Shown here in pieces: positions 1-7,655 of a stretch of DNA of 7,655 nt. Location of the stretch: the NCBI GenBank assembly GCA_046760705.1, contig JBHIER010000150.1:1-7655 (forward strand), in the 5' to 3' direction. A program made the position numbers and the translations under genes. The stretch is from JBHIER01 sp046760705 [NCBI: bacterium]. GTDB lineage: Bacteria; JBHIER01; G020348925. Each line of letters begins with the position of its first letter. The first letter of the stretch is position 1. The notes beneath the pieces are model-generated. The model did not search any database. It saw nothing but the letters and a program-made list of their open reading frames with translations, and was not told the DNA's origin.

Positions 1-521
1 ATGTCCGCATCATCTCAGCCTCCAACAGGGATCTGGCCGAAGAGGTCAAAAAAGGGCGGTTCCGAGAAGACCTGTACTACCGGTTGAATGTCATCTCCAT
101 CCACATGCCTTCTCTGAGGGAACGAAAGGAGGACATCCCCCTCCTGGTCCGGCACTTTCTGGAGAAGCATCGTCAAAAGAGCGCCAAGCCCATCGAAGGG
201 ATCGCACCCAAAGCGATGGATGCCCTCATGAGCTACCATTGGCCGGGCAATGTCAGAGAGCTGGAGAATACTATCGAACGGGCCACTGTATTGGCCAGAG
301 GGAAGACCCTCACGACCGGAGATCTGTACATCCCTAAGGCGGTCGACTTGATGGGTGGGGCGAAGACATTGCGAGAGGTGGAAAGAAATTTCGTGATGAA
401 AGTTCTGGAGGAATGCGACGGAAACAAGACCAAGGCGGCCAAACGGTTGGGTGTTCCCTTCGCTGGCTCCATTATAGACTGCGAGAGTGGGAATGATGAC
501 GGCCCGGATCGGACAGTTTGA
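1..521 (+). CDS. Sigma-54-dependent transcriptional activator (NtrC family), 3' part, frameshifted near its end
   Basis: This is the C-terminal part of an AAA+ enhancer-binding protein that opens sigma-54 RNA polymerase complexes using ATP; the gene begins before the window. Reading from position 3, the protein shows the sensor I stretch RIISASNRDL, then GRFREDLYYRLNV and LRERKEDIP, and the sensor II stretch WPGNVRELENTIERA (240-284), all hallmarks of the family. The Walker motifs, the GAFTGA loop and the N-terminal sensory domain (REC, GAF or FHA) are outside the window, so its input is unknown. A Fis-type HTH starts at about 381 (NKTKAAKRLGV), but the recognition helix is missing in this frame: after codon 453 the reading runs into an unrelated tail and stops at 519-521. 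The expected helix is present in another frame and ends at 494-496, overlapping the kinase start. The family call is secure; whether the gene is intact is not. Confidence 0.93.
   Translation, partial: VRIISASNRDLAEEVKKGRFREDLYYRLNVISIHMPSLRERKEDIPLLVRHFLEKHRQKSAKPIEGIAPKAMDALMSYHWPGNVRELENTIERATVLARGKTLTTGDLYIPKAVDLMGGAKTLREVERNFVMKVLEECDGNKTKAAKRLGVPFAGSIIDCESGNDDGPDRTV
450..460 (+). other. Apparent one-base deletion in the activator's HTH
   Basis: The frame carrying KRLGV changes to an unrelated peptide after the GTT codon at 453-455. Restarting at 455 gives SLRWLHYRLREWE and a stop at 494-496, which is how a Fis-type HTH normally ends. One extra T in the run at 454-455, just before CCC, would join the two frames. 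No classical X-XXY-YYZ slippery heptamer is visible. A sequencing or assembly indel, or a recent mutation, is more likely than programmed frameshifting. Confidence 0.85.
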
Positions 522-2229
522 ACTGTTGGAGGAGATCTCTCGAAGCAGTACCACCTCTGTCTACAAGGCTTTCCAGAGAAGTCTGGATCGGTTGGTTCTG
601 CTGAAGCAGCTCCATCCACACCTGACTCGAGAAGAGGATATTGTCAAAAGGTTCGAGCGTGAGGCCAAAGCAGCCGCCCGCATCAAACACGAACACGTTG
701 TGGACATTTACGACTATGGACGGTGGGAGGATACCTACTACATCGCCATGGAGTATGTGGAGGGCGTCAGTCTGAAAACCATTCTGGACAGAGAGGGGCC
801 CCTACCCCTTGAGGTTGCGGCCACCATTCTGCGCGACGCCCTGAGGGGCCTGGCCTACGCCCACTCAAAGGGGGTGTTTCATCGCGACATGAAACCGGCC
901 AACATCCTCATCTCCTCTGAAGGAACCGTCAAAATAGCCGACTTCGGCCTGGCCCTCATCAGCGACTACCCGTCCATTACGGCCCAGGACGGTGTGGTGG
1001 GAACTCCGGCCTACATGTCCCCAGAACAGGCCAGCGGCGAAGAGATCGACGGCCGCTCGGACATCTTCTCCCTGGGGTTGACTTTCTACGAAATGCTGGC
1101 CGGCAAGAGAGCCTACGACGGCGACTCCTTTTCAGCTTGCATTACAAAACTCCTGACAGAAGAGCCTCCAAGGATGATGGACCTCCGGAAGGACATTCCC
1201 AAAGATGTGGCCGAGGTTTTCGACCGGATGATCAAGAGGCCCGTCTCGAAACGGTATCAGAGCTGCGATGAGGCGTTGCAAGATCTGGAGCGCTGCTCGA
1301 CCCTCCCCGGACGCCTCCTCTCCAAGGAGAGGTTGACCGCATACATCGCCGCCCCCCAGAGAGTCTCGCCCGGTGTGATGCTGCCAAGAGCAAAACCGGC
1401 GAGAACCAAGCGTCGCGCCCTGATGGGAGTTGCCTTCATCTCTTTTGTAATCCTGATCGGGGCCGGGTACATCCTGCTGCTCAAAGGTGCGAACGATACA
1501 ACGGTGGGGACTGTTCCTTTCTCCGGGGCGGAGATCGAGGTCCCCATGGAGCAGACCGAAACCCCCGATTCTCTGGCCCCTCTGGCTCAGAGCGCAGGAG
1601 ATGAGGAACTTCCTGCCGATTCTCTGCCCCCCCTGGCTCAGAGTGCCGAAGAAGAGAACCCTCCTGCAAGAGAGGCGACGGAACCGGTGGGATCGAAGAG
1701 AGCGACCTCCCACTCGGGCCCAGATCGGGGAGAGCCCGATCTGAGGGGTGAGAAGGCAAGAGGCTCCTTCGTAGAGACTCCACCTTCGGAGGCCCAATAC
1801 GGGATTCTGGAGATCAACTGCCTCCCCTGGGCTCACGTCTATGTTGATGATCGACACATCGACACCACTCCGCTCCGAGAAGGGATCTCTTTACAGACCG
1901 GCACCCATAAAGTCGCCCTCGTCAATCCGGACTTCCCCCCGTATTTTGAGACCGTCGACATCGGGCCCGACGAAAGGAGACGGATTGAAGTCTCTCTCTT
2001 TGACATCGTCGGGTTCCTCGAGGTCAAGGCGCGCCCATGGGCCGCAGTCTTCGTCGACGGTGACTCACTGGAGACAACCCCTTTTTATAGACCGCTCATG
2101 CTGAGTGCCGGCAGCCACATCCTCCGTCTGGAAAATCCAAACTTTGCTATCTTAGAGAAGAGGGTGGTGATCGTTGCGGGTGAGACATTGAGGGTGGATC
2201 AAGACCTCACCAAGCTTGGAAGAGAATAG
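493..2229 (+). CDS. Transmembrane Ser/Thr protein kinase with two extracytoplasmic PEGA domains
   Basis: A Hanks-type kinase of 578 residues, expected to phosphorylate Ser/Thr on cytoplasmic partners. Visible residues: VAIK-type Lys38 (LLKQL), alpha-C Glu57 (REA), catalytic loop HRDMKPAN with Asp132, Lys134 and Asn137, DFG Asp150, and TPAYMSPEQ at 171-179. The glycine-rich loop is odd: residues 15-24 read ISRSSTTSVY and contain no glycine. One membrane helix (about 310-330) follows a basic stretch. Then comes an acidic, proline-rich linker with a 17-residue repeat, then two PEGA domains (about 436-505 and 506-578), both with the pattern LPWAHVYVD / RPWAAVFVD followed by TTP. PEGA domains are usually extracytoplasmic and may bind cell-wall or surface partners. 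The start is ATG 493, which overlaps the restored stop of the activator (ATGA) and follows GAGAGTGGGA; ATG 496 and GTG 487 are alternatives. Tight coupling suggests it signals with the upstream activator, which is an inference. Confidence 0.95.
   Translation: MMTARIGQFELLEEISRSSTTSVYKAFQRSLDRLVLLKQLHPHLTREEDIVKRFEREAKAAARIKHEHVVDIYDYGRWEDTYYIAMEYVEGVSLKTILDREGPLPLEVAATILRDALRGLAYAHSKGVFHRDMKPANILISSEGTVKIADFGLALISDYPSITAQDGVVGTPAYMSPEQASGEEIDGRSDIFSLGLTFYEMLAGKRAYDGDSFSACITKLLTEEPPRMMDLRKDIPKDVAEVFDRMIKRPVSKRYQSCDEALQDLERCSTLPGRLLSKERLTAYIAAPQRVSPGVMLPRAKPARTKRRALMGVAFISFVILIGAGYILLLKGANDTTVGTVPFSGAEIEVPMEQTETPDSLAPLAQSAGDEELPADSLPPLAQSAEEENPPAREATEPVGSKRATSHSGPDRGEPDLRGEKARGSFVETPPSEAQYGILEINCLPWAHVYVDDRHIDTTPLREGISLQTGTHKVALVNPDFPPYFETVDIGPDERRRIEVSLFDIVGFLEVKARPWAAVFVDGDSLETTPFYRPLMLSAGSHILRLENPNFAILEKRVVIVAGETLRVDQDLTKLGRE
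1567..1668 (+). repeat. 51-bp imperfect tandem repeat in the kinase linker
   Basis: Two adjacent in-frame 51-bp copies (1567-1617 and 1618-1668) encode DSLAPLAQSAGDEELPA and DSLPPLAQSAEEENPPA. They lie between the membrane helix and the first PEGA domain, where an acidic, proline-rich spacer is expected. The divergence between copies shows the duplication is not brand new. Copy number may vary between strains. Confidence 0.9.
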
Positions 2230-3104
2230 TGCAAAAAGTGCACCATCCGCCCTTGCCCGGCCGAGCCCCACTGCCATATCCGACGAAGCTGAAGAGAGCG
2301 GTTCTTCTCCTGCCTATTTTTCTGGTGCTTTTTGCCTGGGGCAAAACTCAAGCTCAAAGAGAGGAAGGCCCCAGCATCGACAGGATAAAAGAGGCGTATA
2401 ATCGATTTCATTTCCCTGAGGTGGTGTCGTTGGCCACTCAGGCCCTTCAGGTTGAACCACCTCCCTCCTCCGAGGCCCGGGTCGAGATTTACACCTACCT
2501 CGCCTTTGCCCAGATTGCGTTGGGAAAGAATGAAGAGGCCAGAGGAGCCTTCCAGGCCGCACTCGAACTTGACCCTACTCTCACTCTCGATCCTGTCCTC
2601 GTATCTCCCAAAATTATTGCTGTTTTCAACGAGGTAAGATCGGCCCTCGAGGCCAAAAAGGAAAAGGAGACGCTGAGGCCAATTTTGCAGCCCCCCCAAG
2701 AGGACAGACGGTTGGGAGGTGCCTGGAGGTCACTTCTGCTGCCGGGCTGGGGGCAGCTCTACAAGGGCCAAAAGAGAAAAGCCATCGTTATCTTTGCTGT
2801 TCAGACCATCAATATAAGCACACTCTTGTACGCCCACTTCAAAATGGACCGGGCTCACGACGAGTACCTACAGGCTACGGACCCTGACCTCATCGAGTCG
2901 ACGTACGACCGATACAACTCCTACCATAAACTGAGGAATTCCTTCCTCCTCTTGACTGGAGGCGTATGGATCTACTCCCATATAGATGCTGCCCTCATCC
3001 AGCCGGCCTCCGAAAAGGGAAGGGGAGCAGAGCCAGAGGCCAGCTCCTTGATGCCTGCAGTGACATCAGATTCCTTCTACCTCACATTCACGGTCAGATT
3101 TTGA
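2229..3104 (+). CDS. TPR-containing membrane protein with a DUF5683-like C-terminal domain
   Basis: A protein of 291 residues whose function is unknown. The GTG start at 2229 shares one base with the kinase stop codon and lies four bases after GGAAGAG (2218-2224), so the two genes are translationally linked; GTG 2238 is a possible alternative. The N-terminus is a proline-rich lead, then KLKRAVLLLPIFLVLFAW, a signal peptide or anchor with possible cleavage after Ala42 (TQA). Residues about 49-138 are helical and TPR-like (YLAFAQIALGKNEEARGAF, then AALELDPTL). Residues 165-258 resemble DUF5683: LLLPGWGQLYKGQKRKA at 169-185, then two hydrophobic segments (about 185-204 and 238-258). The C-terminus (SFYLTFTVRF) is beta-strand-like and ends in Phe. 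Its position after a PEGA kinase suggests an accessory envelope role for the kinase pathway. The domain calls are from motif recognition only. Confidence 0.85.
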   Translation: MQKVHHPPLPGRAPLPYPTKLKRAVLLLPIFLVLFAWGKTQAQREEGPSIDRIKEAYNRFHFPEVVSLATQALQVEPPPSSEARVEIYTYLAFAQIALGKNEEARGAFQAALELDPTLTLDPVLVSPKIIAVFNEVRSALEAKKEKETLRPILQPPQEDRRLGGAWRSLLLPGWGQLYKGQKRKAIVIFAVQTINISTLLYAHFKMDRAHDEYLQATDPDLIESTYDRYNSYHKLRNSFLLLTGGVWIYSHIDAALIQPASEKGRGAEPEASSLMPAVTSDSFYLTFTVRF

Positions 3105-3160
3105 ATCCTCCCTTGCAGCTTGGATCAACGATGCACGTTTTGCGTTTCTCCCATGAAAAT

Positions 3161-3170
3161 ATTGCGCAAT
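3161..3170. promoter_or_regulatory. Perfect 10-bp palindrome, candidate activator binding site
   Basis: ATTGCGCAAT is an exact palindrome in the intergenic region. It lies about 145 bp upstream of the start predicted from the sigma-54 promoter, a usual distance for an enhancer-type site. TTGCG also occurs at 3140-3144 and within the promoter at 3295-3299. No second full palindrome was found, and activators often bind paired sites, so the assignment is weak. Confidence 0.35.
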
Positions 3171-3250
3171 GCAACCACTGATGAAAGCCACGTTCTGAGC
3201 GCTGTTGTGAAGTCGGAAATATAAACAACTGTTCAACAAGAAGTTACATT

Positions 3251-3280
3251 TTGACTGCGAGTCTTGATTCAGAGTATATG
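3251..3280 (+). promoter_or_regulatory. Possible sigma-70-type promoter
   Basis: TTGACT (3251-3256) and TATATG (3275-3280) are separated by 18 bases, giving five of six and four of six consensus matches. It would start transcription just beside the sigma-54 element. Such pairs occur by chance in AT-rich spacers, and the sigma-54 match is stronger. Confidence 0.3.
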
Positions 3281-3283
3281 CAA

Positions 3284-3299
3284 AGGCACGTAAATTGCG
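3284..3299 (+). promoter_or_regulatory. Sigma-54 (-24/-12) promoter of the giant gene
   Basis: AGGCACGTAAATTGCG matches the sigma-54 consensus TGGCACG-N4-TTGCW at every core base. The invariant GG (3285-3286) and GC (3297-3298) are ten bases apart, as required. Only the flanking T before GG and the W after TTGC differ. The predicted start is near 3310, giving a leader of about 36 bases that contains the ribosome binding site. A sigma-54 activator gene lies about 2.8 kb upstream on the same strand, which makes a regulatory link plausible but unproven. Confidence 0.75.
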
Positions 3300-3330
3300 T
3301 ACTTATGCTTCGGCAAAAAGTCTCTGCAGG

Positions 3331-3336
3331 AAGGAG
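3331..3336 (+). promoter_or_regulatory. Ribosome binding site of the giant gene
   Basis: AAGGAG is a near-ideal Shine-Dalgarno sequence with nine bases before ATG 3346. It fixes that start, which also opens directly onto a signal peptide. Confidence 0.85.
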
Positions 3337-3345
3337 TAAAGAACT

Positions 3346-6300
3346 ATGGCGTCTATTTCATCGCACAATTTCAGATTGATTGCTCTTTTGGGCATCGTTC
3401 TACTTCTCGGAGTTGAAGGTGCTGGGGCATCGGATGGGGAGTGGATTCTCCAGCGTTTTGTGCCCTACGACATCGACGTGATTCGGGACGTCTCCTTCTT
3501 AGAGAACGGACAGACCGGTTGGGTTGTGGGGTACAGCCAATACGGTCGCTTCCATTTCGGTTCCACCATTCTGAAGACGATCGACGGGGGCACGACCTGG
3601 ACGGAACAGGAGATTGGATTGACCAACATCAACGAGGCAGTTCACTTCACCGATGCGCTTCGCGGCTGGATTGTTGGGAGCAATGGGGGGATTGCTTTTA
3701 GCTCCGACGGCGGTGATTCCTGGGTTCCTCAGGCCAGCGGGACCGATGCCCGATTGAAAGATGTCTATTTTGTCAACGACACGGTCGGTTGGGCCGTCGG
3801 CGACTACACCATACTCTACACCTCAAACGGGGGAGAGTTGTGGCAAGGAGCTGGGGTCCATTACGGGTCGCGACTCAGGGCCGTCACCTTTCAAACGGTC
3901 AGGGAAGGATGGGCCGTAGGAAGCAACGGTGCCATCTACCACACCACTGACGGGGGCAGCGAGTGGACGACTGTTGAAAGCCCCACGTCCGAGGATCTTT
4001 GCGACATCTTTTTCATTGACGAGGAAACTGGATGGATCGCTGGAAAGAGCGGAACCATTCTTTCCACCGAAGACGGGGGGAGCACCTGGGGGGTTCAATG
4101 GAGCGGCCCACCGCTCAACGGCCTCTTCTTTACGGACGAAAAGGCGGGATGGGCCGTAGGCTCAGGAGGCACCGTTCTGTTCACCGAGGAGGGGGGCAAG
4201 CCATGGGTGCCAATTCCAGCACCAGCCAGTGCGACCCTGTATGGGGTCCATTTCTTCGATCGAGACCGGGGCTTGATCTTCGGAGCAGGTGGCGTCCTCC
4301 TTCGGACCGGCGACGGCGGAGCCTCCTGGCGTTACGTTATGGACGGCCCTAACGCCAATTTGACGGACGTCTCTTTCGTCGACTCCAAAAACGGCTGGGC
4401 CTGCGGGTGGAGTGGTACTATTCTTCGCACTACGGACGGTGGTGAGCGATGGGTGGCCCAACGATGCGGCCTGGACGCCCTTCTCATGGGTGTAGATTTC
4501 ATCGACCTTCAAAATGGATGGGTTGTTACTTTCGAAGGGGGGATGGTTGAGACCGAAGAGGGTGGGGTGAGCTGGTCGTCTGTCCAGGCACCGGCCGGCA
4601 CCTTCAGAGGCCTGGACTACATCGACCAGGAGAACATCTGGGTCGTTGGCGAACACTCCGGCCTGGGATCAATCTGGCACGGCCCAGAGTGGCGAGTTAG
4701 GGCCCAGGTCCCCATGGGCGGCCCCTTACAGGATGTCTGTTTCGCCGACAGGTCCAACGGCTGGGCTGTGGGAGTGGGGGGAACTATCCTGCACACATCA
4801 GATGGAGGCCAGAGATGGGTCGAACAGCGCTCCGGAACTACGGAAGAGCTGACCCACATCCAGGCTGTCAACTCCGAAACGGCATGGGTGTCAGGAAAAT
4901 TCGATGGCCTCATCAAAACAGTTAACGGCGGCCAGAACTGGACCATCGTCCGACCTGACCCATCCTACATTTTCGGACCGATCGCATTCCCCACTTCCCA
5001 GACAGGATGGGTCGTGGGCCGGTCCAAGACCGACGGATCGGTGGTGATCTTTCATACGACCAATGGAGGGGGCCAGTGGGGTACCACCCCTGTGGCCTCA
5101 AAGGAGGGGTTCACGGCCGTGGACTTTGTGAGCCCGTTCGAAGGGTGGGCTGTTGGGGAGAAGGGAACCATTTGGTATTTTACCGATCTCCCCTTCCACT
5201 CCATATCCGGTCGGGCGATCTATTGCGACAACCTTGAGCCGATCCCAGGAGTCACCTTAGATCTCTCCGGCAACGCCGTTGACACAGTGATCACTGATGA
5301 GGAGGGAACATTTAGGTTCGACCGCCTTCGCCAGAGTCGGAACTTCTGCGTAGAACCTCACATGGCCGGAGCTCCCCGGCAGGTCATCACCTCCTTTGAT
5401 GCCTCCCTGATCCTGAGGAGCATGCTGGGGCAGTATCCCCTCAGCTCCTGTGATTCGGTGGCTGCAGACGTCACTGGCAATGACCAGGTCGGCAGCTTCG
5501 ACGTATCAACCATTCTGCGATATGTGGTGGGCCAGGAGCTCGAGGGGTTGACTGGTAGGTGGACATTTCTGCCTGAAGAATTTTGCTATCCAGACCTTCA
5601 GTCTGACCAGACAGACCAAATCTTTCGAGGTATCATATACGGGGATGTGACTCAGAATTGGCCGGGTATCCCCGATACCGGCGTTCCCGAAGTGAGCGTC
5701 AGCCTCCCTCACACCGGTGCGGCCGCCGGCTCAGATTTTTTCGTCTACATGTTCGCCTCACCCATCACCTATACTTGTTTGGACTCATTGGACATCTTAT
5801 CGTACCAGGCTCGGATAGACTATGATCCCTCTCTTTTGCGAGTCACCGCTGTGTCAGACACCGGACTTGTCACTGAGGGGTGGGGCCCTCTGGTGTCTGA
5901 CATCGACAACGATAATGGTCACCTCTATATAGCCAAAGCGGGGACTTTTCCGCTCCCCTGGTGCGGAGGTTCACCAGCCCCGCTGGTGATCATCCACTCT
6001 TGCGTCGATTCGAAAGCCCCTTCCGGGGCTACAAGCCCCCTGACTATGACTACGATGATCTTTAATGAGGGTACACCCTGGGCCGAAACCAGGGATGGCT
6101 TCTTCCAGGTGTTGAAGCACACCATTTCCGGCACAGTCTCCTACTGTTCGACGGAGGTTGAGGTGCCTGATGTCCTGCTCTCCCTGGCCGGCGATGCCTC
6201 TTTGACCGCCTCAACGGATGAGACCGGCTGGTACGGATTTCACGGTCTTGACCGGGGCGGCGATTACTGTGTGGTCACCATTTCAAAAAGCGGAGTCCCG

Positions 6301-7655
6301 AAACATGTCGTCACCTCCTTCGATGCCTCTCTCATCCTCCGCCGCCAGGCCGGCACCTACGAACTGGACGACTGCGGCACCAGCGCGGCAGATGTGAACG
6401 GAGACGGTACGATCGACTTCGACGACGCCCTCCTCATCTCCCAATATGCAGTCGGCGAAAGGAGCCAGGGACGTGCCGGAGTATGGGCATTTACCCCCCA
6501 AGGCAGTTGCTATGAAGATCTGCCCTCCGATCAGACCTATCAGAATTACGAAGCTTTCGTTTACGGCGATGTGAGCGGGAACTATCCTGGAGCTGTTGAG
6601 CCCTCCGAAGCCCCCTGGATACACGTGGTCATACCCGACCAGAAGGCCGGTCCTGGGGCAACCATCGGTCTGTCCGTGGTCATCGACTCTTTCAGCGGCG
6701 ACCGCCTCGATTCACTGCACATTTATGCATGTGACCTCCAGCTCAATTACGATCCATCCCTCCTCTCAGCCCTCCTCGTCTCCAGCGAGGGACTGGTAAC
6801 CGAAGACTGGGGAACGATCAGCTCCCGGATCGATGAGGCCACCGGGCTGGTGAGTATTGGGATGACCGGTGCTGCTCCCCTCAGCCACGGTGGATTCGAG
6901 GATATACCTCTGGCCAGGATCGAGTTTTATGTCAACAAGGAGGTGGCCCCGGGAACGGAGACCATCATCAGCATCCCGGATGCCATATTCAACGAGGGTT
7001 CCCCGAAAACTTATAGGACAGACGGCCATCTTCGTATTCAGGGGAAAAGCATCTCCGGAACGGTCCGCTACTGCGACTCCGAGCAATCCGTCGGCGGCGT
7101 TGTGCTTCAACTGCAACTCTTCGGTCTCATCTGGGATGAGACGGAGACAGACTCCGACGGCGAATACTCTTTTTCGGACCTTTATGCAGGAGGAGATTAT
7201 TGCGTCTCTCCCATCCGGGCAGCACCGCTGACCTCTGGTCAGAGGGTCATCAGCTCTTATGATGCAGCCCTCATCTCCCGGCATGTGGTTCATCTTCTGC
7301 CTTTCAGTGCTTGTGATTCCGTCGCCGCTGACGTGAGTGGCGATGGGACCATTAGCCCTTACGATGCTTCCATCATTCTCCAGTACGTGGTGTCTGATGC
7401 CTCCGGTGGGTCACCTCTCCTCCCTGGCCAAATCGGCACGTGGCACTTCCAACCGACGGAGCGCTGCTTCACAGACTTAACCTACAATGAGACTTCCGAT
7501 TATGAGGCAGTTCTGTACGGGGATGTAAGCCAGAACTGGCCTGGCCTGCGGTCGGCAAAAGCCGCCGACGGTGCAGGCCTGCAGATCGGTCGGCCGAAAG
7601 TGACACCGGGTCCCAAAAACTCTTTCGCCCTGCCGATAGGAGTCGATAATCCCGG
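3346..7655 (+). CDS. Giant secreted protein: 14 YCF48/BNR-like blades plus repeated dockerin-cohesin modules, 3' end outside the window
   Basis: An uninterrupted reading frame of 1436 codons that is still open at the window edge. It starts at ATG 3346 behind AAGGAG. Residues 1-28 are a signal peptide (FRLIALLGIVLLLG core, possible cleavage after AGA at 28), so the protein is exported. Residues about 44-614 hold 14 repeats of roughly 41 residues with the pattern GWAVG, then GTILxTTDGGxxW, typical of YCF48/BNR propellers. From residue 618 a module of 307-309 residues repeats (618, 925, 1234). Its order is a small beta-sandwich like the carboxypeptidase regulatory fold (ISGTVxYC), a dockerin-like segment, a linker ending YGDVxxNWPG or similar, and a cohesin-like domain (YDPSLL, then IFNEGxP). 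The third module is cut in its cohesin. Likely role: extracellular scaffold, adhesin or surface fibre; no catalytic site is visible. Any C-terminal sorting domain or anchor lies beyond the window. Confidence 0.93.
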   Translation, partial: MASISSHNFRLIALLGIVLLLGVEGAGASDGEWILQRFVPYDIDVIRDVSFLENGQTGWVVGYSQYGRFHFGSTILKTIDGGTTWTEQEIGLTNINEAVHFTDALRGWIVGSNGGIAFSSDGGDSWVPQASGTDARLKDVYFVNDTVGWAVGDYTILYTSNGGELWQGAGVHYGSRLRAVTFQTVREGWAVGSNGAIYHTTDGGSEWTTVESPTSEDLCDIFFIDEETGWIAGKSGTILSTEDGGSTWGVQWSGPPLNGLFFTDEKAGWAVGSGGTVLFTEEGGKPWVPIPAPASATLYGVHFFDRDRGLIFGAGGVLLRTGDGGASWRYVMDGPNANLTDVSFVDSKNGWACGWSGTILRTTDGGERWVAQRCGLDALLMGVDFIDLQNGWVVTFEGGMVETEEGGVSWSSVQAPAGTFRGLDYIDQENIWVVGEHSGLGSIWHGPEWRVRAQVPMGGPLQDVCFADRSNGWAVGVGGTILHTSDGGQRWVEQRSGTTEELTHIQAVNSETAWVSGKFDGLIKTVNGGQNWTIVRPDPSYIFGPIAFPTSQTGWVVGRSKTDGSVVIFHTTNGGGQWGTTPVASKEGFTAVDFVSPFEGWAVGEKGTIWYFTDLPFHSISGRAIYCDNLEPIPGVTLDLSGNAVDTVITDEEGTFRFDRLRQSRNFCVEPHMAGAPRQVITSFDASLILRSMLGQYPLSSCDSVAADVTGNDQVGSFDVSTILRYVVGQELEGLTGRWTFLPEEFCYPDLQSDQTDQIFRGIIYGDVTQNWPGIPDTGVPEVSVSLPHTGAAAGSDFFVYMFASPITYTCLDSLDILSYQARIDYDPSLLRVTAVSDTGLVTEGWGPLVSDIDNDNGHLYIAKAGTFPLPWCGGSPAPLVIIHSCVDSKAPSGATSPLTMTTMIFNEGTPWAETRDGFFQVLKHTISGTVSYCSTEVEVPDVLLSLAGDASLTASTDETGWYGFHGLDRGGDYCVVTISKSGVPKHVVTSFDASLILRRQAGTYELDDCGTSAADVNGDGTIDFDDALLISQYAVGERSQGRAGVWAFTPQGSCYEDLPSDQTYQNYEAFVYGDVSGNYPGAVEPSEAPWIHVVIPDQKAGPGATIGLSVVIDSFSGDRLDSLHIYACDLQLNYDPSLLSALLVSSEGLVTEDWGTISSRIDEATGLVSIGMTGAAPLSHGGFEDIPLARIEFYVNKEVAPGTETIISIPDAIFNEGSPKTYRTDGHLRIQGKSISGTVRYCDSEQSVGGVVLQLQLFGLIWDETETDSDGEYSFSDLYAGGDYCVSPIRAAPLTSGQRVISSYDAALISRHVVHLLPFSACDSVAADVSGDGTISPYDASIILQYVVSDASGGSPLLPGQIGTWHFQPTERCFTDLTYNETSDYEAVLYGDVSQNWPGLRSAKAADGAGLQIGRPKVTPGPKNSFALPIGVDNP
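3475..5187 (+). repeat. Fourteen YCF48/BNR-like propeller blades (protein-level repeats)
   Basis: The first residue of the GW(A/V/I)xG signature falls at residues 58, 107, 148, 188, 229, 268, 309, 350, 391, 431, 472, 513, 554 and 600, a spacing of 39-41 with longer first and last intervals. Most blades add an Asp-box-like T-x-D-G-G-x-x-W. Blade 7 has GLIFG with no Trp, and blade 10 lacks the Asp-box (GSIWHGPEW). YCF48-type propellers are seven-bladed, so 14 blades fit two consecutive propellers, with blade 8 starting near residue 335. Confidence 0.88.
5197..7655 (+). repeat. Three large modules: beta-sandwich, dockerin-like, linker, cohesin-like (third incomplete)
   Basis: Module starts are at 5197 (HSISG), 6118 (HTISG) and 7045 (KSISG), giving lengths of 307 and 309 residues. 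Dockerin-like parts: residues 679-730, 987-1038 and 1300-1350, each with two F/Y-D-A/V-S/A helices. Cohesin-like parts: 781-924, 1090-1233 and 1412 to the edge; the two complete ones are 144 residues each. Four cysteines recur at matching positions. The DNA copies are clearly diverged, so the duplication is old and held at protein level. Confidence 0.85.

Follow-up and report, generated by a model that had tools for sequence, protein, structure and literature searches.

Single polypeptides that carry both cohesins and a dockerin are already on record. Adaptor and other scaffoldins combine the two (PMC3413522, PMC11557425), as do the scaffoldin-like proteins of anaerobic methanotrophic archaea (ANME), which have one dockerin and up to five cohesins with no link to cellulose (PMC9012536), and the adaptor in a model of a planctomycete 'planctosome', in which a cohesin and a dockerin share one protein, likewise with no cellulose connection (PMC6461901). 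As far as the accessible parts of these sources go, the scaffoldins with both partners belong to cellulose-degrading complexes and no nested dockerin is mentioned for them, nor is one described for the ANME proteins or the planctosome adaptor. Here we report on a 7,655-nucleotide stretch of DNA from a bacterium, JBHIER01 sp046760705 (assembly GCA_046760705.1, contig JBHIER010000150.1, positions 1 to 7,655; hereafter called the window), in which an incomplete gene encodes a surface protein made up of a YCF48-type propeller head followed by three modules. In each module a CnaB-like sandwich, within which a dockerin is predicted to be nested, is followed by a cohesin, and we call this pair the cassette. 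What is known is one chain bearing both partners, as in the adaptor scaffoldins; what is new is the nested dockerin and the recurrent cassette. In the open-access literature on cohesins, dockerins and this architecture, as far as its accessible parts go, we came across no earlier account of a CnaB-like domain that harbours a dockerin. The initial annotation of this stretch, made from the sequence, had taken the presence of dockerin and cohesin in one chain as unusual. That part does not stand, as some scaffoldins already have both; its folds, the co-occurrence itself, the lack of an enzyme domain and the order expected of a stalk have held up.

Among solved structures, the cohesin-X module-dockerin end of CipA (3kcp, 4fl4) and the X-dockerin dyads (4u3s, 4wi0, 5k39, 2b59) likewise hold cohesin, beta-sandwich and dockerin in one chain, and in these proteins the dockerin terminates it. 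In the window protein, by contrast, the chain would return from the nested dockerin to complete the sandwich, a further cohesin follows, and the cassette occurs three times. An X-dockerin dyad has its X module directly before a C-terminal dockerin, whereas here strands and another cohesin come after the dockerin. When cohesin 1 together with the sandwich domain was superposed on 4fl4_I, 228 residues could be aligned (Z 16.3) with a root mean square deviation (rmsd) of 9.2, meaning that the domains are placed differently from those of the CipA end. The sandwich has the same fold as the CnaB, SdrD B and carboxypeptidase-D transthyretin-like domains, from which it differs by the dockerin inserted between its strands. 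CnaB/SdrD B-type domains build the stalks of surface adhesins and pili.

The reading that we prefer, with somewhat less than even confidence, is that of a propeller-headed surface stalk with an internal calcium clamp. The protein would be exported by the type IX secretion system (T9SS), with its head carried on a stalk of three cassettes. Each nested dockerin may pair with a cohesin of the same chain, in a neighbouring module, with calcium as the clamp that would join one domain to the next and make the stalk stiff. Such a cassette would be self-contained, and not a landing platform for enzymes.

Domain layout and predicted fold of the modules

The surface protein is encoded on the forward strand (3346..7653) by an open reading frame of 1436 residues, which is incomplete and still open at the window end; by eye, its first ~28 residues resemble a signal peptide. 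The head (3463..5181, forward strand) is a YCF48/BNR-type beta-propeller region, recognized by Pfam (PSII_BNR, E 3.6e-54, 8 stretches) and by a motif count that gave 14 repeats of ~41 residues each, which would be enough for two seven-bladed propellers in tandem. Two propeller-type NCBIfam models also matched the protein, both below their cut-offs: Ycf48 with 196 bits (cut-off 326), and the glycosylhydrolase model glycosyl_F510_1955, which fell on the propeller with 69 bits (cut-off 175). No enzyme domain scored above cut-off in a Pfam and NCBIfam search of the whole protein in the window, in line with the initial annotation, which had seen none.

The three modules lie at 5200-6120, 6121-7047 and from 7048 to the window end, and identity to module 2 is 38% for module 1 and 39% for module 3. 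Over the whole protein, Pfam found Dockerin_1 in 3 stretches (E 2.9e-17; 63.1 bits against a cut-off of 22.9), CarboxypepD_reg in 3 stretches (E 5.1e-15; 56 bits against 32.3) and Cohesin (PF00963) in 2 stretches (E 1.3e-13; 51.8 bits against 24.1). Since these matches and that to the YCF48/BNR propeller all exceed the curated Pfam cut-offs, a chance match is excluded.

All features of the modules are on the forward strand. Part A of module 1 (5200..5667) is a CnaB/carboxypeptidase-regulatory-like sandwich, assigned by Pfam and the module alignment, in which dockerin 1 (5380..5532; Pfam) appears to be nested, with its calcium loop 2 at 5467-5502 and a reduced loop 1. Cohesin 1 follows at 5677..6120, as one of the two Pfam Cohesin stretches and as a match to our own cohesin model. 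The same order is seen in module 2, with part A at 6121..6591, dockerin 2 at 6304..6456 (Pfam and the fold model; calcium loop 2 at 6391-6426) and cohesin 2 at 6604..7047, which holds the best Pfam Cohesin stretch (residues 1093-1213). In module 3, part A (7048..7545; Pfam and the module alignment) contains dockerin 3 (7243..7395), with the best Pfam Dockerin_1 stretch (residues 1301-1348) and calcium loop 2 at 7330-7365. The initial residues of cohesin 3, recognized by alignment with the ortholog L001 described below, occupy 7552..7653, and the rest lies beyond the window end. As a correction to the initial annotation, cohesins 1 and 2 are complete in the window and only about the first 34 residues of cohesin 3 fall in it; this domain is complete in the ortholog.

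Structures were predicted with AlphaFold2 from two alignments (A3 and A4); a first long alignment (A2), with its relatives in poor register, was left unused. The stretch of cohesin 1, part A of module 2 and cohesin 2 (465 residues, 21 rows) gave a mean predicted local distance difference test score (pLDDT) of 89.2 and a predicted TM-score (pTM) of 0.71. According to this model, both complete cohesins have the cohesin fold: cohesin 2 fits the solved cohesin 4uyq_A with Z 17.9 and rmsd 1.8 over 133 residues, and cohesin 1 fits 5nrk_A with Z 16.9 and rmsd 2.0 over 134 residues (model residues 8..152). The fold of cohesin 1 is also that of the non-cellulosomal Archaeoglobus cohesin 2xdh (Z 15.5).

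Part A of module 2, when folded alone (157 residues, 22 rows), reached a pLDDT of 95.2 and a pTM of 0.87, with a topology of five strands, three helices and three strands. In VIA-align comparisons, it aligned end to end with single transthyretin-like/CnaB sandwich domains of ~80-95 residues; its residues 1..148 matched 80/81 residues of 5aq0_A (rmsd 2.2, Z 9.5) and 84/95 residues of 8bdw_A (rmsd 2.6, Z 9.0), and the pilin SpaD (4hss_A) was matched with Z 10.2. The strands preceding the helices end at residue 55, and 80 aligned sandwich residues are more than residues 1-55 can supply, so the strands after the helices are also needed. Because strands on both sides of the helices complete the sandwich, the dockerin would be an insertion in a CnaB-like domain, as modelled here for module 2. 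As VIA-align reports no more than the two end residues of an alignment, we infer that the helices are the part skipped. The Z values for the sandwich are moderate, and its predicted CnaB/transthyretin-like (carboxypeptidase regulatory-like) fold also rests on the Pfam families CarboxypepD_reg and SdrD_B. We propose that part A forms a single compact domain that has one canonical calcium site, and that the dockerin is not a free plug, both of its ends being fixed in the sandwich.

The helical insertion resembles known dockerins in sequence more clearly than in Foldseek searches. With part A of module 2 alone, Foldseek reached no match at an E-value of 0.001 or better, which may reflect the splitting of the domain by the insertion. 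Of the weaker matches, the dockerin 5m2o_B had a target-length TM-score of 0.63 and an rmsd of 1.7 over 54 columns at 33% identity (E 0.07), and 4uyp_B was 38% identical (E 0.08). An A-domain sequence profile reached the dockerin chains 4uyp_B (E 6.5e-12) and 1ohz_B (E 2.8e-8), as well as the X-dockerin chains 4u3s_B (E 4.5e-4) and 2b59_B (only E 0.036); that no X-dockerin chain was among the 50 structure matches listed for part A alone carries no evidential weight. The dockerin assignment rests mainly on Pfam. Pfam and the predicted structures agree with both folds; the initial annotation, which would have been refuted had the segments lacked these folds, is not refuted on this point, and its proposal that every module of the chain pairs a dockerin with a cohesin is borne out. 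The earlier picture of two parts per module has to give way to three, with the dockerin inserted, as it seems, inside a CnaB-like sandwich.

Cassettes in related genomes

A genome scan with the whole protein as a single sequence found no relative, and one with an alignment of the three modules gave 46 loci. The best of these, L001 (CP070758.1, Gemmatimonadota bacterium isolate bin29), encodes a complete and syntenic ortholog of 1670 residues, 62% identical to the window protein, with three dockerin and three cohesin stretches; by eye, modules 1, 2 and 3 match position by position between the two proteins. The C-terminus of the ortholog carries a FlgD-like/T9SS type A sorting domain, with FlgD_ig at 39.4 bits (cut-off 27) and TIGR04183 marginal at 23.6 bits (cut-off 23); Pfam Por_Secre_tail (13.5 bits) and CHU_C (25.6 bits) stayed below the cut-off of 27. 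Its assignment as a T9SS type A sorting domain is accordingly a narrow one, and applies to the ortholog only, the window ending before that region. The genome of the closest relative (G001, labelled Gemmatimonadota; a phylum-based genome search around it returned this genome alone) also has the T9SS machinery, as judged from SprA (568 bits for the best stretch, cut-off 200), PorU (738 bits, cut-off 420) and T9SS tails, of which there are at least 150 (267 candidates, 150 of them scored).

The heads found before the cassette differ between loci, being a propeller in L001, an M14 carboxypeptidase in L004, an S8 subtilase in L009 and L039, an FG-GAP domain in L002 and a NosD/beta-helix domain in L007. 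A T9SS-type tail follows the cassette in L001, L002, L004 and, as FlgD_ig, in L005. This order of a varied head, the cassette and a T9SS-type tail indicates that the cassette occupies the position of a stalk, and the surface stalk displaying a propeller head, as first suggested in the initial annotation, fits the order of head, repeated cassette and tail in L001. The pair of cohesin and nested dockerin recurs in genomes of several phyla, according to their record titles. Stated cautiously, what recurs is a unit, the cassette, that places a cohesin next to a nested dockerin within one chain.

To see how regular this neighbourhood is, we compared nested with ordinary dockerins. A query with the A domain only found 25 copies in G001, after which the score falls from 98.5 to 41 bits (150 of 244 candidates scored). 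In the same genome, Pfam gave 81 cohesin matches and, with 150 of 525 candidates scored, at least 148 dockerin matches at a threshold of E 0.001; only one of the latter overlaps an A domain, meaning that nested dockerins score low in Pfam. By Pfam only, a cohesin lies within 200 bases of 14/25 A domains as against 8/147 other dockerins (Fisher p 6e-9). We also used a trained cohesin model, which was built on cassette loci and is more sensitive, and biased towards the cassette group. With this model, a cohesin was found within 60 residues of 23/24 full-length A domains of G001 (one partial copy dropped), 19/23 A domains of 14 other genomes and 3/30 top-scoring ordinary dockerins of G001. The 23 A domains are the full-length copies in 30 fetched loci of 40 matches, with the remaining 10 matches (9 in Membranihabitans, 1 in G009) lying outside this adjacency count. 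Pooled, 42/47 nested dockerins tested adjoin a cohesin, compared with 3/30 of the top-scoring ordinary ones.

The numbers found in G001 are in the range of cellulosome producers; more than 70 dockerins are given for C. thermocellum and more than 220 for R. flavefaciens in the accessible part of PMC3413522.

A-domain matches at E 1e-15 were obtained in 16/19 genomes, and in G014 and G016 the match covers the dockerin part only. A few cassette genomes show hardly any other partner for the cohesin or the nested dockerin. In a WOR-3 bin (G002), the one dockerin and two cohesins detected by Pfam all lie in one 1023-residue frame. A Verrucomicrobiae bin (G005) shows two dockerins, both of them nested, and its two cohesins are in frames equal in length to the A-domain frames, with one dockerin match and one cohesin match below the Pfam cut-off. 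In Membranihabitans (G012), 11/12 dockerins are nested and 10/13 cohesins lie beside an A domain; the A-domain search gave 12 copies for the strain Membranihabitans marinus CZ-AZ5. These genome-wide Pfam counts refer to genomes of unstated completeness and miss diverged copies.

A cohesin-rich protein was seen at L015:7790-14605 (Bacterium BMS3Bbin03), where a 2272-residue protein with eight cohesin stretches adjoins a dockerin-bearing frame.

Calcium loops, binding faces and competing readings

Calcium ligands were assessed with the ligand rule known from EF-hand work in 35 non-redundant full-length A domains (37 matches before removal of duplicates), 3 of them from the window. The ligand letters of loop 2 are present in 32/35 A domains and those of loop 1 in 0/35; the last Asp of loop 1 (Asp12) is retained in 35/35. 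A type I dockerin (PF00404) has two calcium-binding loop-helix repeats; the nested dockerin departs from this pattern and is, by its sequence, related to such dockerins but left with a single canonical calcium site. Positions 14, 17 and 18 of both helices, which we take to be contact positions in canonical dockerins, are less variable among the A domains than positions 15 and 19, and the second helix is unconstrained at positions 10, 11 and 22, which are canonical contacts. The two dockerin halves are alike at 4.4/9 positions, which is hardly above the 3.8/9 between different domains, and symmetry was dropped as an argument for this reason.

On the cohesin side, we looked at the canonical Asp of the binding face, presumably a key residue, to go by C. 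thermocellum work. This Asp is present in 21/55 cohesins beside A domains versus 6/98 other cohesins (p 1.3e-6). Broken down by position, it occurs in 7/26 cohesins before an A domain, 12/25 after, 2/4 between and 6/98 elsewhere, a difference for which kinship could account. In a tree of 54/55 A-adjacent cohesins (one gappy row dropped), those before and those after the A domain are clustered, with 13 changes where shuffling gave a mean of 20.8 (0/200 as low); since 22/51 inner branches are open, we do not claim a single origin.

These residues bear directly on a purely structural explanation, which we regard as rather unlikely, with real points in its favour. According to it, the nested dockerin would be a calcium-stabilized CnaB insertion that binds no cohesin, the cohesins would be beta-sandwich spacers, and the stalk would form by domain stacking. 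The degenerate loop 1 in 35/35 A domains, the freely varying contact positions of the second helix, and the Gln that cohesin 1 has in place of the Asp taken as key all agree with such a role, as does one genome (G013) with a nested dockerin and no Pfam cohesin. However, a cohesin beside the nested dockerin in 42/47 copies is more than mere spacers would need, and the restrained variation at helix positions 14, 17 and 18, the presumed contacts, also argues against it.

The wealth of ordinary dockerins in G001 raises another explanation, that of an adaptor scaffoldin, in which the three cohesins would recruit dockerin-bearing secreted proteins to a T9SS-anchored landing platform. The initial annotation had proposed a look for other dockerin-bearing proteins in the genome; on the closest relative's genome, this yielded at least 147 other dockerin stretches, leaving room there for the recruitment of partners. 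In the ordinary dockerin frames of G001 (26 scanned of 30 fetched), the dockerin lies 50 residues or fewer from the frame end in 17/26, FlgD_ig is present in 8 and Por_Secre_tail in 7, and enzyme domains, GH99 and peptidase M1 among them, occur in single frames. A T9SS-anchored cohesin scaffold has, moreover, been proposed for Cloacimonadota (PMC8542988, in its accessible part). On the other hand, the cassette genomes G002, G005 and G013 show no other dockerin, and the A-adjacent cohesins differ at the canonical Asp from the remaining ones as if they had another specificity, which kinship may also explain. Taken together, we consider recruitment an unlikely role for the cassette.

The preferred reading, in which the nested dockerin pairs within its own chain, has to be weighed against a number of observations that do not favour it. 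The three-domain model reached only the pTM of 0.71 given above, and no dockerin-cohesin contact was seen in output that came without coordinates; in the Coh-X-Doc chains 3kcp/4fl4, whose order is similar to that of the cassette, the dockerin binds another protein. The other dockerin stretches of G001, at least 147 in number, could compete for the cassette cohesins. In the 14 other genomes, only 30/85 dockerins are nested and only 23/88 cohesins lie beside an A domain, while 9/55 other dockerins also adjoin a cohesin (including all 4 in a KSB1 bin). No cohesin was detected next to 5/47 A domains, and G013 has one nested dockerin with no Pfam cohesin at all, which together indicate that nesting can exist without a partner. 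The canonical Asp position is Asp in cohesin 2 but Gln in cohesin 1, and its presence in 21/55 A-adjacent cohesins is a minority. Pfam detects no Cohesin at E 0.001 in L004 and L009, several adjoining cohesins being detected by our own model only, and the profile scan listed no T9SS tail in L007, L009 or L039.

The initial annotation had offered two ideas, a fibre of molecules zipped to one another and a lock between neighbouring modules of one chain, of which the census weakly favours the second. In the fibre, the dockerins of one molecule would bind the cohesins of the next to form a surface polymer. The equal numbers of both partners in one chain of L001 would suit this arrangement, and in G002, which shows a single such protein, self-pairing is the one option left, be it in cis or in trans; our results do not separate the fibre from cis pairing. 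A T9SS tail fixing each molecule to the surface would limit the growth of a polymer, however, and of 32 frames with a full A domain, 29 hold a single copy and no array (some frames being cut by locus ends), and we hold the fibre to be improbable. Most likely, the dockerins pair within the chain or only stiffen the stalk, and the cohesin and dockerin parts probably hold the stalk itself together instead of recruiting enzymes.

The cassette offers a way into the question of what role cohesins and dockerins play in the numerous microbes that lack cellulosomes, and makes both cis pairing and calcium stiffening directly testable. A broader conjecture, which we consider doubtful, is that outside cellulosomes cohesins and dockerins widely, and perhaps originally, serve as a calcium-dependent mechanical clamp in cis. 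In the FCB group and in further lineages, CnaB-like domains would then use their nested dockerins to grip the adjoining cohesin, giving surface stalks their stiffness, and the cellulosomal X-dockerin would be a released form of this cassette. If within-chain pairing is true, one of the strongest known protein-protein bonds would serve as a built-in staple, which would be relevant to cell-surface biology and protein engineering.

Gene neighbourhood

Four genes are syntenic between the window and L001, with their order kept. Upstream of the surface protein gene, a sigma-54 regulator gene, cut by the window start, is 76% identical to its L001 counterpart over 153 residues. It is followed on the forward strand by a gene for a Ser/Thr protein kinase with two PEGA stretches (487..2229; Pfam; 60.5% identity to L001) and one for a TPR/DUF5683 protein (2229..3104; Pfam; 54% identity). 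These three genes (window 1-3104) perhaps control the expression of the surface protein. The last residues of the sigma-54 regulator (window 3-521) are out of frame with respect to L001, and the expected end continues in another frame (487-560); this break could stem from a sequencing error, or the gene could be truly frameshifted. Within its linker, the PEGA kinase gene carries a 51-base unit twice in tandem (1565-1667). Downstream of the ortholog, L001:12373-20719 encodes five secreted-looking proteins in a row; by eye, the last four are similar to one another, and a T9SS tail scored above cut-off in both of the two proteins of this row that were scanned.

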